Notes: generated by a model from the sequence alone, not told the origin. DNA of 64,000 nt from a bacterium (GCA_037481695.1 JBBFLE010000008.1:62001-126000), one strand, 5' to 3'. Counted from the stretch's first letter, positions 1-5,318 are shown. Translations and numbers: made by a program.

Positions 1-92
1 GCCCTATGTTCCCCTTCTCTGAGGGTCATCCGGGCCATCTCCCTTTCCTTTATTTTCTTGAGATCCTCTATGCTTAGCTTGGGCAACTCCAT
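1..92 (-). CDS. HndB-like (2Fe-2S) ferredoxin-domain protein, N-terminal fragment
   Basis: Only the first 30 codons are inside the window; the gene runs off the left edge. The translation begins MELPKLSIEDLKKIKERE and continues with a charged helix, which resembles the start of HndB-type thioredoxin-fold ferredoxin subunits that follow NuoE/HndA in NADH- or NADP-linked hydrogenase and complex I operons. A G-rich ribosome site lies just before the ATG, 19 bases after the nuoE stop. The family call is an inference from the N-terminus and position; the cysteine motif would lie outside the window. Confidence 0.6.
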   Translation of the reverse strand, partial: MELPKLSIEDLKKIKEREMARMTLREGEHR

Positions 93-660: not shown

Positions 661-1212
661 TTAGGCCTCCAAGGCCCCTATTTCCAGAAGCCCCTCCCTG
701 ACCTTCTCCCGGATCCACATCAAGACCTCCGGCTCAGTAAGGCCAATGGGTTCCAACTCCCGGCGAAGCTGGCTACTGTCAAAGCAAAAACTCTTGCCCT
801 CTCTTATGTGCTCGTACAGAACTTCCACATGGGGCCCCCCCAACAGGATGCCCACCAAGGTGGCCCCCATGTCACCCAAGGGTTTCCTGTCTATGTGGCT
901 GTGCTGAAACGTGGCACGTACCCTGGTCCCCTTGCCCGGGGTGGACTCCAGCTCCAGATCTCCACCGGCCATGCGAGCCGCCTCCCTCAGTAGGGGCAAA
1001 CCAAGCCCCACCCGCCTCGTGGTGCGGGTCGTCACAAAGGGATCCAAGGCCTTGGCTGTCATTTGGGGATCCATCCCGCTGCCGTCGTCCTCCACCTCTA
1101 GTTCCAGCTTGTCAGCTACCAGGTCTTCTACTATCCTTATCCGAATCTGTTTGGCTCCTGCCTTAAGGCCGTTTTCAGCCACATCCAAGATGTGGAGTGA
1201 AAGGTCCTCCAA
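661..1212 (-). CDS. HATPase_c ATP-binding protein (histidine-kinase-like, no sensor)
   Basis: A 183-residue protein whose first about 105 residues form a GHKL ATPase fold: an N-box around LDVAENGLKAGA, a G1 box DDGSGM, an F-box-like stretch FVTTR, and G2 as GLGLPLL. There is no DHp domain and no phospho-accepting histidine region, so it is not a complete sensor kinase. The C-terminal 70 residues are unassigned. It starts at TTG, three bases after the PHP gene stop. Genes of this type occur beside RsbW-like, DRTGG and PHP genes in several hydrogenase or complex I operons; its substrate is unknown. Confidence 0.82.
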   Translation of the reverse strand: MEDLSLHILDVAENGLKAGAKQIRIRIVEDLVADKLELEVEDDGSGMDPQMTAKALDPFVTTRTTRRVGLGLPLLREAARMAGGDLELESTPGKGTRVRATFQHSHIDRKPLGDMGATLVGILLGGPHVEVLYEHIREGKSFCFDSSQLRRELEPIGLTEPEVLMWIREKVREGLLEIGALEA

Positions 1213-1215
1213 GCC

Positions 1216-1965
1216 TCAGACGCCCCCCACCAAGAGGCGACCCTTCTCGCCCCTGAGGGCCAGCTTGAGTTCTTCAAAGCTGGCTTCCTCCACCTTCAGC
1301 CTGCTCCAGGCTCTGCCCACCTCCTCAGGCCTATGAGCATCCGAGCTCCTTACCAAGGGCCACTTCCTGATCTGGGGGAATCTCTCTTTGGCTTCGGGCC
1401 TTGTCATGGCCCAGGAAATCTCCAGAGCATCCAGCTCAAGACCCTCTGGTATCAAACCCAGCTGCCCCAGGATACCGAATCCCTCCCGGTCCACATGACT
1501 GGCTATTGCCAGGCCGCCATACCCGTGGATTGCCTGCACCAGATCTTCCACACTCAAGGTGGTGGCCCCGGCCAGAAATCTGTCCTCTGAGCCCAGGATC
1601 TCGTCTTGTTCATCCATCAAGACCTGGTAACCAAAGATCTCGGGTATGTTCTCTCCCGGGAGGTTCTTGTCCACCAGATCCTGCATTGCCATGGCCCTTT
1701 CCAGATCCGGGAAAAGCCCCAACAGGTGGACTTCTTCGGCTGAAGTTATCTCCATGCCCGGCAGCACGGCCAAACCTGCCTCTGCGGCCCTTCTCTGGAG
1801 TGCTGCCACATTTCTCATGGAGTTATGGTCGCACACAGCTATGAGCTCCAGTCCCATGCTCCTGGACGCCTCCACTATGGCCCCAGGAGTCATTCGCCAT
1901 GTATCTGCACAGGGTGACAGGGAGGTGTGTATGTGAAGGTCTGCCCGGATCTCAACCAGGGCCAT
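1216..1965 (-). CDS. PHP-domain metal-dependent phosphoesterase
   Basis: A 249-residue PHP-family hydrolase with a full set of metal-ligand motifs: DLHIHT near residue 9, CDHN near 45, GMEIT near 70, ASHVDRE near 156 and SSDAH near 210. This family uses a trinuclear metal centre to cleave phosphate esters; the substrate of this subgroup is not known. The start overlaps the end of the DRTGG gene by 14 bases, so the two are probably translationally coupled. It sits inside the nuo operon between nuoD and nuoE. Confidence 0.88.
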   Translation of the reverse strand: MALVEIRADLHIHTSLSPCADTWRMTPGAIVEASRSMGLELIAVCDHNSMRNVAALQRRAAEAGLAVLPGMEITSAEEVHLLGLFPDLERAMAMQDLVDKNLPGENIPEIFGYQVLMDEQDEILGSEDRFLAGATTLSVEDLVQAIHGYGGLAIASHVDREGFGILGQLGLIPEGLELDALEISWAMTRPEAKERFPQIRKWPLVRSSDAHRPEEVGRAWSRLKVEEASFEELKLALRGEKGRLLVGGV

Positions 1966-2305
1966 GGCCTCCCCGTATCCCCATCTGGTAAAGCCTTCCG
2001 GCCACCTCGAAGGTGGGCTGGTCCGAAACCATCAAGACCACACCTTCCTCCTGGGCCTTGCGGACTGTGGCATCCTCAGGTTCGCGGCCGTTGACCAGGA
2101 TCACGCCCGCAAGATCATTGAGAGTGGCCACAGCCACTATGTTCAAATGGGTCTGAAGCGTTATCCACAGGTCCCCAGCCCTGGATCTGGCCATAACATC
2201 GCTTAACAAGTCACTCACATACGCCCCGCTCACCTGGCGCTCCAGACGATCCTGGCAGCAGCATACCTTCAGACCCAGCGCCTCCACCACCTCCTGGAGC
2301 TTCAT
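1952..2305 (-). CDS. DRTGG-domain protein
   Basis: A 117-residue protein resembling the DRTGG domain, a small alpha/beta module otherwise found beside CBS domains and in phosphotransacetylase-type proteins. The stretch from about residue 25 to 110 (SGAYVSDLLSDVM, then LWITLQTH and GVILVNGREP) matches the family pattern; the literal DRTGG string is absent. The start ATG overlaps the stop of the RsbW-like gene (ATGA) and its end overlaps the PHP gene. Its ligand is unknown; nucleotide sensing is a reasonable guess only. Confidence 0.8.
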   Translation of the reverse strand: MKLQEVVEALGLKVCCCQDRLERQVSGAYVSDLLSDVMARSRAGDLWITLQTHLNIVAVATLNDLAGVILVNGREPEDATVRKAQEEGVVLMVSDQPTFEVAGRLYQMGIRGGHGPG

Positions 2306-2745
2306 GGCTTTCCCCCAGACTCCCTGATATGCACCTGTGCGTGCAAGCGGGTCCCTACTCCTGGTTTGGAATCTATCTGAAGCAAATCAGAGTTCTTTCT
2401 GATGTTGGGAAGCCCCATCCCAGCTCCAAAACCCATTTCCCGGATCCAATCAGTGGCTGTGGAATAACCTTCCTGCATTGCTAGCTCTATATCCTCTATT
2501 CCAGGCCCGGTGTCCTCAACTGTGATCTCTATGAGCGAGGGGCTCACTGCCAGAATCATCTGTCCTCTATGGGCATAGGACACAACATTTATCTCAGCTT
2601 CGTAGGCTATTATCACCGCCCTCTTTATATAATGAGCCTCCAGGCCTATTTCCTTGAGAATCTGCTTCACTCTGCTGGCCGCAGTCCCCGCCCGACTGAA
2701 ATCGCCCCCTTCTATGAAGAAGGTCTCTTTGTAGACCGCTTGCAT
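2302..2745 (-). CDS. RsbW/SpoIIAB-like anti-sigma-factor serine kinase domain protein
   Basis: A 147-residue HATPase of the anti-sigma regulatory factor type. Visible motifs are the N-box region AYEAEINVVSYAH, the G1 box VEDTGPGI and the G2 region FGAGMGLPNIRKNSD. I chose the ATG at 2745, preceded by GGAGGG, over a longer TTG start at 2778. It follows nuoD by 52 bases and overlaps the DRTGG gene. No anti-anti-sigma factor or sigma factor lies nearby, so a classic partner switch is not shown. A protein kinase role is known for the family but is inferred here. Confidence 0.84.
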   Translation of the reverse strand: MQAVYKETFFIEGGDFSRAGTAASRVKQILKEIGLEAHYIKRAVIIAYEAEINVVSYAHRGQMILAVSPSLIEITVEDTGPGIEDIELAMQEGYSTATDWIREMGFGAGMGLPNIRKNSDLLQIDSKPGVGTRLHAQVHIRESGGKP

Positions 2746-4002: not shown

Positions 4003-4476
4003 TCAGGATATGCTTTCGGGCCCCCGCAGAGGATAGTCCTTGCGAAGGGGATGTCCCACCCAGTCCGCCGGAAGCAGGATCCTGCGAAGGTCCGGATGGC
4101 CCTGAAAATTTATTCCCATGAGGTCGAAGGTCTCTCTTTCATGCCAGTCGGCCGTGGGCCAGATGGACGTCACAGAGGGCACCGTTGCATCCTGGGAACT
4201 CACTCTCGTCTTGAGCCTGAACCTGCTGTGAGTCTTTGTGGAATAGAGCTGATACACCACCTCGAAGCGAGGCTCTCTGGGGAAATAATCCACGCCACAA
4301 ACAAAAGAGAGAAAGTCGAAGTTCAAATCTGGGTCGTCCCTCAAAAATTCGCAGACCTTCAGCAAATCCTCCCTGGGAACAACCACCCAGCTTTGACCAC
4401 GAAACTCCCCAACCTCCTTTACGGCTTCGGGAAATTTCTCTTGGAGCTTCTCCACTGCTTTTGGCTCCTCGCTCAT
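4003..4476 (-). CDS. nuoC: NADH-quinone oxidoreductase subunit C
   Basis: A 157-residue 30-kDa-type subunit of the peripheral arm of complex I. The family signature appears in the C-terminal half: HERETFDLMGINFQGHPDLR followed by LLPADWVGHPLRKDYPL. It starts three bases after the nuoB stop and is followed by nuoD. The short length fits a separate NuoC rather than a NuoCD fusion. Confidence 0.96.
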   Translation of the reverse strand: MSEEPKAVEKLQEKFPEAVKEVGEFRGQSWVVVPREDLLKVCEFLRDDPDLNFDFLSFVCGVDYFPREPRFEVVYQLYSTKTHSRFRLKTRVSSQDATVPSVTSIWPTADWHERETFDLMGINFQGHPDLRRILLPADWVGHPLRKDYPLRGPESIS

Positions 4477-4479
4477 GGC

Positions 4480-4971
4480 TCACCCCCGAAGGCTCGCCCC
4501 GCGGGCGATGCCCTTCTGCACCATGTCATGCAAACGCAATATCCCATGCAACAGGGCTTCAGGCCGAGGTGGACAGCCCGGGATGTAAACGTCCACTGGC
4601 AGGTAGCGATCTATGCCTTGAACCACAGCGTAAGTATCGAACACTCCACCCGTGGAGGCGCAAGCCCCCATGGCAATGACCCACTTGGGATCAGCCATCT
4701 GTTCATAAAGCCTTAAGACAGCGGGGAGCATCTTCTTGCTCACGGTCCCTGCCACGATCATCAGATCCGCCTGCCTTGGCGAGGGCCTGAATACCTCCAT
4801 CCCGAAGCGAGCTATGTCGAAACGGCTTCCACCTGCTGTGGCTATCATTTCCAAAGCGCAACAGGCAAGCCCGAAGCCCAATGGCCACATGGAAGACTTG
4901 CGGCCCCAATTGACCAACCACTCCAACTGCGTGAGGATGACCGACCCCTGCCCCTCGCCCTTTACTCCCAT
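4480..4971 (-). CDS. nuoB: NADH-quinone oxidoreductase subunit B
   Basis: A 163-residue PSST-type subunit that carries the terminal [4Fe-4S] cluster N2 next to the quinone site. The cluster ligands are visible as the tandem cysteines in GLACCALEM, the cysteine in MGACAS and the one in PGCPPRPEA. The first ten bases overlap the end of nuoA, indicating translational coupling. Confidence 0.97.
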
Positions 4972-5318
4972 TCCAGTGCCCCTTTCCTCCAGACATAAAA
5001 GAGCCCCAGCAAAAGCACGGCAATAAAGATGACCATCTCAATGAGGCCGAAAAGCCTTAAATCCTCGAAGATCACTGCCCACGGGTACAGGAACACAGCC
5101 TCTATGTCGAAGATGATGAAAAGCATTGCTATTACGAAAAACTTGACCGAGAAACGCCTCCTGGCACTCCCAATAGGGTCCATGCCGCATTCATAAGGCA
5201 TGAGCTTCTGGGAGGTGGGTCTTCGCTTTGCGAGATATGTGGAAAGCAAGATGATTAGGGCCGCCACGGCCACATTTACAACCAAAAAAAGAAAAATGGG
5301 TAAATATTGCGAGGGCAT
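4962..5318 (-). CDS. nuoA: NADH-quinone oxidoreductase subunit A
   Basis: A 118-residue membrane subunit of complex I with three hydrophobic segments (about residues 7-27, 60-80 and 88-108). The loop between the first two holds the conserved [20 protein letters not shown] region, including the cysteine near the quinone cavity. It is the first gene of the operon, with an AAAGGAGG ribosome site. The region upstream carries the promoter and leader features listed separately. Confidence 0.96.

Follow-up and report, generated by a model that had tools for sequence, protein, structure and literature searches.

What is the function of four small genes that interrupt a complex I-type operon between nuoD and nuoE? 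The question arises from a 64,000-nucleotide stretch of bacterial DNA (GCA_037481695.1 JBBFLE010000008.1:62001-126000), referred to here as the window, in which four minus-strand genes occupy positions 661-2745, flanked by nuoD (3976-2798) and nuoE (618-112). They encode an RsbW/SpoIIAB-like GHKL ATPase (HATP1), a single-domain DRTGG protein (DRTGGa), a PHP-family metallophosphoesterase (PHP) and a histidine-kinase-type ATPase (HATP2). The comparisons described below indicate that this cassette is probably the core of a redox- and energy-responsive signaling module controlling electron-bifurcating NADH/ferredoxin (Bfu-type) enzymes, with the complex I-like enzyme Nuo-Bfu as its client in this operon. 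The evidence for this general role is good; its chemistry is what we infer.

The products of all four genes were assigned to families by Pfam profile searches. HATP1 (147 aa, 2302..2745) matches HATPase_c (8.5e-8) and HATPase_c_2 (1.3e-7) and, as a GHKL ATPase standing on its own, keeps its N, G1 and G2 boxes intact; the E..N, DxGxGI and GFGAGMGLxN boxes are invariant across 21 homologues. HATP2 (183 aa, 661..1212) matches HATPase_c at 8.9e-19 over residues 8-103 only, and residues D10, N14, D42, G44, G46, G69 and G71 are invariant among its homologues. Its conserved C-terminal domain of ~75 residues is unnamed by Pfam, is modeled by AlphaFold2 as alpha-beta-beta-alpha-alpha (predicted local distance difference test score, pLDDT, 92.3), and gave no confident structural relative when the model was compared with known structures. 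A MutL/GyrB-like identity over the full length of HATP2 was considered and rejected (TM-scores of ~0.5, root-mean-square deviation 5-9 A), so that only the ATPase part is assigned. The PHP protein (249 aa, 1216..1965) matches PHP (7.3e-7) and PHP_C (1.3e-6). Its HxH, DH, E, H, H and DxH metal-ligand motifs show little or no variation across 17 homologues, giving a complete metal set of H11, H13, D46, H47, E72, H80, H157, D209 and H211. With nucleotide boxes and metal ligands retained, HATP1, HATP2 and PHP all look competent as enzymes.

DRTGGa (117 aa, 1952..2305) matches the DRTGG family (PF07085; 4.9e-8) with 33.2 bits against a curated cut-off of 25.2. The folds nearest to its AlphaFold2 model (pLDDT 95.5) are a DRTGG domain (2ioj, TM-score 0.81), the CBS-DRTGG region of a pyrophosphatase (3l2b) and the N-terminal domain of HPr kinase (1ko7), and the idea that it might be a STAS look-alike was discarded on these grounds. 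Residues D32, L33, S35, W47, T49, Q51, H53 and N55 are invariant in an alignment of homologues. The CBS-DRTGG region of the Clostridium perfringens pyrophosphatase (3l2b, 3l31) offers a parallel both in fold and in the partnership of CBS with DRTGG; in that enzyme, however, the two lie within one chain, whereas in the cassette DRTGG is a separate protein and CBS domains, in some homologues, are carried by the ATPase.

The genes are nearly touching, as had been noted from the sequence. The ends of HATP1 and DRTGGa overlap by 4 bases and those of DRTGGa and PHP by 14 bases, and HATP2 has a TTG start after a 3-base gap from PHP. The HATP1 start was placed at the ATG at 2745; an alternative TTG at 2778 is possible, yet the relatives L037 and L038 begin at the ATG. 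The original prediction of two GHKL ATPases, a DRTGG protein and a PHP protein with intact metal motifs, in a set containing no DHp (dimerization and histidine phosphotransfer) domain, sigma factor or anti-sigma antagonist, agrees with these assignments: neither ATPase contains DHp and no STAS protein is encoded.

Conservation of the set was assessed in 297 genomes of the phylum and in a wider bacterial collection. PHP orthologues were found in 65 of the 297 genomes (67 matches at threshold, of which two short partial ones were left out). Neighborhoods were read for 60 loci from the phylum and 80 from the collection, leaving 134 after removal of duplicates; the record titles of the 80 collection loci, on which the count of phyla rests, span more than a dozen phylum-level groups, although titles can be wrong. 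One such record, L160, is titled Clostridiales, yet the relatives returned for its genome include three titled Aminicenantes, and its title is probably wrong. The consensus order across the 134 loci is DRTGGb - HATP1 - [HydS] - DRTGGa - PHP - HATP2 - NuoE/HndB/NuoF, where DRTGGb is a second DRTGG protein and HydS is a hydrogenase-like protein. DRTGGa lies directly before PHP in 119 of 128 loci, and HATP2 directly after it in 114 of 126. A chance cluster was ruled out by the retention of this order. In Clostridium thermocellum, the spacing of the genes around Cthe_0335-0342 is compatible with a cis cassette.

Neighbor counts were restricted to the 73 loci with 6.5 kb of flank on both sides. Within these, HATP1, DRTGGa and HATP2 are each present in 69, DRTGGb in 67, and HydS matches in 34. 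The original prediction would have failed had the genes commonly lain far from those of the NADH module; instead, the neighborhood survey it proposed ties the set to that module, with NuoE or NuoF no more than 6.5 kb away in 57 of the 73 loci, and present in 64 at some point along the sequence retrieved. The window genome has seven NuoF loci in 4.1 Mb, from which, by our own arithmetic, such proximity is expected by chance in ~2%. Across the 297 genomes, all 65 with PHP have a DRTGGb match (p=4e-58), at a threshold that also lets in DRTGGa and with weak best matches in two of the 65 (G174 and G198) that are perhaps DRTGGa or fragments. PHP is likewise present in 32 of 33 genomes with HydS (p=1e-23).

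The description of a four-gene system therefore did not hold, since the usual set comprises six genes, with a second DRTGG protein and often HydS. Some complex I operons split it, as DRTGGb-HATP1-nuoABCD-DRTGGa-PHP-HATP2-nuoEFG (L039, L103, L126 and L131). In the window's family, HATP1 follows nuoD, and DRTGGb and HydS lie outside the operon; judged from these gene orders, the four genes are what is retained in cis of the six-gene set. The window genome carries both missing members in trans: a full-length HydS homologue on contig C3 (447 bits), and a DRTGGb on contig C18 (L005:386-802), directly 3' of acsE in a carbon monoxide dehydrogenase/acetyl-CoA synthase (CODH/ACS) cluster with cooS. The latter, at 191 bits, is the best DRTGGb match of all; it may have been displaced from the cassette or be an old paralogue. 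In the relative G020, both genes are in trans as well, with DRTGGb beside CODH/ACS (L180). No paper naming DRTGG with hydrogenase and PHP, or with NADH and histidine kinase, was found in the open-licence literature; a description elsewhere is possible.

Gene fusions and distance correlations were used to ask which members are partners. HydS is fused to DRTGGa in five loci (L057, L065, L076, L102 and L149, the last apparently the same sequence as L057) and to DRTGGb in one (L058), PHP is fused to HATP2 in three (L128, L155 and L163), and HATP1 carries an N-terminal CBS-CBS pair in about 21, ten of them checked by Pfam. DRTGGa and DRTGGb are clear homologues; a conserved threonine is common to both, as is a D-L-[LM]-S-D loop whose serine (S35 in DRTGGa, S44 in DRTGGb) is invariant. 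When pairwise distances were compared over the 37 loci with all six genes, uncorrected for shared species history, the highest partial correlations were 0.54 for HydS-HATP1, 0.39 for PHP-HATP2, 0.28 for HATP1-DRTGGb and 0.26 for HydS-DRTGGb. Taken with the fusions, these values suggest two sub-units, HydS/HATP1/DRTGGb and PHP/HATP2/DRTGGa.

The enzyme encoded around the cassette had been taken for standard complex I, and this identification has to be replaced. Transcription proceeds nuoA-B-C-D, HATP1, DRTGGa, PHP, HATP2, nuoE, an HndB-like gene and nuoF-G-H-I-J-K-L-M-N, the genes from nuoF onward lying beyond the window in locus L004. The NuoF protein contains an N-terminal thioredoxin-like [2Fe-2S] domain, a flavin mononucleotide domain, NADH_4Fe-4S and, at the C-terminus, 2x[4Fe-4S]; in domain content it matches BfuB, which is the flavin subunit in the electron-bifurcating family. 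With a NuoF of BfuB type, a NuoE of BfuC type, a gene resembling HndB and 14 nuo genes, the operon fits Nuo-Bfu, a complex I-like enzyme of 14 subunits that includes a BfuABC module and is predicted to use NADH and reduced ferredoxin jointly (Schut et al. 2022, PMC9304861). Canonical complex I was ruled out by the BfuB-type NuoF and the HndB-like gene. As in the published Nuo-Bfu operons, bfuABC-type genes lie in the middle of a nuoA-N operon and NuoF carries the extra Fe-S domains; the window operon differs in having the four-gene cassette between nuoD and nuoE, and the main text of PMC9304861 makes no mention of the cassette genes. By this likeness the window enzyme is predicted to confurcate electrons from NADH and reduced ferredoxin.

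The remaining genes of the operon within the window are all on the minus strand. Directly 3' of the cassette, nuoE encodes a BfuC-like [2Fe-2S] subunit (2Fe-2S_thioredx, 3.9e-49), and only the start of the HndB-like gene (1..92) is present before it runs off the window, the HndB profile match being in L004. Directly 5' is nuoD (TIGR01962 NuoD, 582 bits), then nuoC (4003..4476), nuoB (4480..4971) and, at the operon start, nuoA (4962..5318); Complex1_30kDa, Oxidored_q6 and Oxidored_q4 were found across these last three. Labels for nuoL, nuoM and nuoN come from single-sequence hidden Markov models that cross-match one another, which leaves the cassette counts unaffected.

Does the cassette build this enzyme, or regulate it? 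Both had been proposed. In an assembly or maturation role, the ATPases would be small GHKL chaperones, with PHP and DRTGG as auxiliary factors building, or inserting cofactors into, the NADH/Bfu module. The constant position beside NuoE/HndB/NuoF would suit such a role, as would the lack of a recurrent regulator gene nearby, save occasional two-component genes. In Acetobacterium woodii, the HATPase protein HydE (Awo_c27000) is encoded at the equivalent position of the bifurcating hydrogenase operon; it is reported to lie outside the active enzyme, and the authors suggest that it "may be involved in assembly or signalling" (PMC3315566). HydE resembles HATP2 in having a histidine-kinase-like ATP-binding domain and in being encoded in a hyd operon without being an enzyme subunit, an equation made by operon position and annotation, not by sequence; the report agrees with assembly and signaling alike.

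The contexts of DRTGGb away from the cassette bear on this choice. These were read at 20 extra loci and at the window genome's own, with neighbors named by Pfam for L182, L191, L196 and L005 and by translated-start similarity or our own profiles for the rest. DRTGGb directly follows NfnAB, the bifurcating transhydrogenase, at L182, L185-L190 and L194, in several genera and often with Rnf-like genes upstream. It adjoins HdrA with FlpD at L191 and CODH/ACS genes at L005 and L180, and at L195-L197 (genomes G253, G160 and G231) it stands between NuoE and NuoF with a GltD-like Fe-S flavoprotein subunit. The common theme, as far as these neighbors can be named, is flavin-based bifurcating enzymes. 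DRTGGb-HATP1 pairs also occur without the rest of the cassette at L183, L184, L192, L193 and L198, the first four away from such enzymes; L183 and L192 adjoin PilT-like ATPase genes. The window genome additionally encodes an AAA_26 protein of 457 aa with a DRTGG match (L006:8648-10021), beside an acetate-CoA-ligase-like gene.

This variety of contexts, with chemically different enzymes (Nfn, Hdr and CODH/ACS) as neighbors, favors an adaptor or regulator over a NuoEF-specific assembly factor. HydS and the CBS fusions are moreover sensor-type, and six of the seven NuoF loci of the window genome have no adjoining cassette. Assembly is therefore unlikely as the function of the set. The regulatory half of the original proposal fared better: nucleotide sensing is supported by the CBS-CBS-HATP1 fusions, and assembly is the less favored half given the sensor-type and kinase-type domains.

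If the cassette is regulatory, its output could instead be transcription of the operon, with HATP1 as an anti-sigma-like kinase and the DRTGG proteins as antagonist analogues. HATP1 does resemble SpoIIAB, the anti-sigma F factor, in NCBIfam (at 1.4e-11, short of the model's cut-off), its best relatives among solved structures are anti-sigma F factors (1til/1l0o), and 16 loci have response-regulator genes within 6.5 kb. The RsbW/RsbV/RsbU and SpoIIAB/SpoIIAA switches resemble the cassette in their free-standing GHKL ATPase, whose N, G1 and G2 boxes are intact in HATP1; they differ in their STAS antagonist, PP2C phosphatase and sigma factor, all missing from the cassette, which has DRTGG and PHP proteins instead. 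The recurrent neighbor gene clusters inspected, which do not amount to an exhaustive annotation, likewise yielded no STAS antagonist, sigma factor or PP2C phosphatase. A classical partner switch is excluded by the missing genes, in keeping with the earlier statement that this is not a known one; nor is HATP2 a two-component histidine kinase, as DHp/HisKA with a phospho-accepting histidine is not present in its Pfam matches or AlphaFold2 model. The cassette also lies within structural operons and not beside a regulator gene, and the DRTGG proteins have no DNA-binding domains. A transcriptional output is accordingly quite improbable, and the output of the signaling module would be post-translational.

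The input was considered through HydS. In cassette homologues its gene, between HATP1 and DRTGGa, encodes ~430 residues with two Fer4 motifs, an [FeFe]-hydrogenase H-domain (Fe_hyd_lg_C), a C-terminal FeS motif and no PAS domain. By architecture, and not by phylogeny, it resembles the group D / M2e putative sensory [FeFe]-hydrogenases. Genes of that type lie upstream of bifurcating hydrogenases, beside kinase-like genes (PMC3561251, PMC8163306); TamHydS with an H-cluster is catalytically active in vitro, and how a group D putative sensor transmits its signal is stated to be an open question (PMC8163306). In the group D literature found, the partners DRTGG, PHP and HATP2 are nowhere presented together as one set. 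The HydS of the window genome (L098:9367-10884, contig C3, 505 aa) is an orphan beside HU-like and macro-domain-like genes and is the only Fe_hyd_lg_C gene there, no other [FeFe]-hydrogenase-type gene being present. Four of its cysteines, C197, C252, C357 and C361, are invariant in 14 sequences, and we take these, from known motifs, to be the four H-cluster cysteines. Beside the cassette at L176, in a record titled Cyanobacteria bacterium UBA8530, a HydS-type protein fused to HATPase (L176:9551-11488, 645 aa) lies on the opposite strand.

Assembly of an H-cluster calls attention to the maturases. Neither HydF nor HydG was found above cut-offs in the window genome (HydE was not searched for), so that its HydS differs from those beside bifurcating hydrogenases both in being in trans and in lacking these two proteins. 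In the phylum, HydF is missing in 28 of 33 genomes with full-length HydS, and HydF and HydG are both missing in 24 of the 32 HydS genomes tested; elsewhere, HydF is missing in 17 of 18 genomes that carry HydS in cis at other loci. Presence of HydS or of PHP is statistically independent of HydF in the phylum genomes (p = 0.59 and 0.14). The HydF search works, because HydF was present for five (L056, L075, L077, L078 and L176) of six tested loci with an ExMxCCPGGC-type catalytic motif, L095 being the sixth. Incomplete assemblies can explain single absences of HydF, not the bulk of them. Since HydF and HydG are mostly absent, HydS is likelier a redox sensor than an H2 sensor, and usually, we infer, an iron-sulfur sensor without the diiron site. 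The current literature view of group D HydS, in which H2 bound at the H-cluster would be signaled through the ATPase, can draw on the retained cysteines, on active TamHydS and on co-occurrence of the cassette with FeFe hydrogenases in some genomes, but these absences demote it as a general function and leave it very unlikely here.

A mechanism can be proposed for the favored redox- and energy-responsive module. HydS, in trans here, would report the reduction state of the low-potential electron pool, and CBS domains in many homologues would read the adenylate state, the two inputs jointly setting HATP1 activity. HATP1 would then phosphorylate or reversibly clasp the DRTGG proteins, which as adaptors would form the output by docking on and gating bifurcating enzymes. 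PHP and HATP2 would constitute the opposing arm, PHP probably stripping the phosphate or nucleotide signal. Such a mechanism would work like the RsbW switch, although the cassette, with no STAS, PP2C or sigma member, would not belong to that class. In its most specific form, which is offered only tentatively, this would be a new kind of redox relay. An Fe-S protein descended from a hydrogenase but devoid of H2 chemistry would act on DRTGG adaptors together with a GHKL ATPase tuned by adenylates and a metallophosphoesterase, and across many phyla of anaerobic bacteria the adaptors would dock on and gate several unrelated flavin-based bifurcating enzymes (Bfu/Nuo-Bfu, Nfn, Hdr and CODH/ACS-linked).

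Several observations weigh against the signaling module or its proposed steps. Known RsbW/SpoIIAB kinases target STAS proteins, not DRTGG, and in the model comparison the DRTGG fold differs from STAS. PHP is nearest to nuclease- or nucleotidase-type PHPs in NCBIfam (TrlF, Rnm and nucleoside bisphosphate phosphatase), and its substrate may be a nucleotide or RNA. Because half of the cassettes have no HydS, HydS cannot be an obligatory input. The seven NuoF-type loci of the window genome are accompanied by one cassette only, the distance correlations are, as noted above, uncorrected for species history, and the papers searched yielded no biochemical data on any DRTGG, PHP or HATPase protein of the cassette.

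Bifurcating enzymes set the energy yield of anaerobes such as acetogens, sulfate reducers and syntrophs. The conserved set names likely partners for the group D putative sensor, namely two adaptor proteins, two ATPases and a phosphoesterase. Most genomes with this putative sensor are without the hydrogenase maturases, which argues that the quantity sensed is redox state and not H2. The set is probably an undescribed switch that informs bifurcating enzymes of the redox and energy state of the cell.

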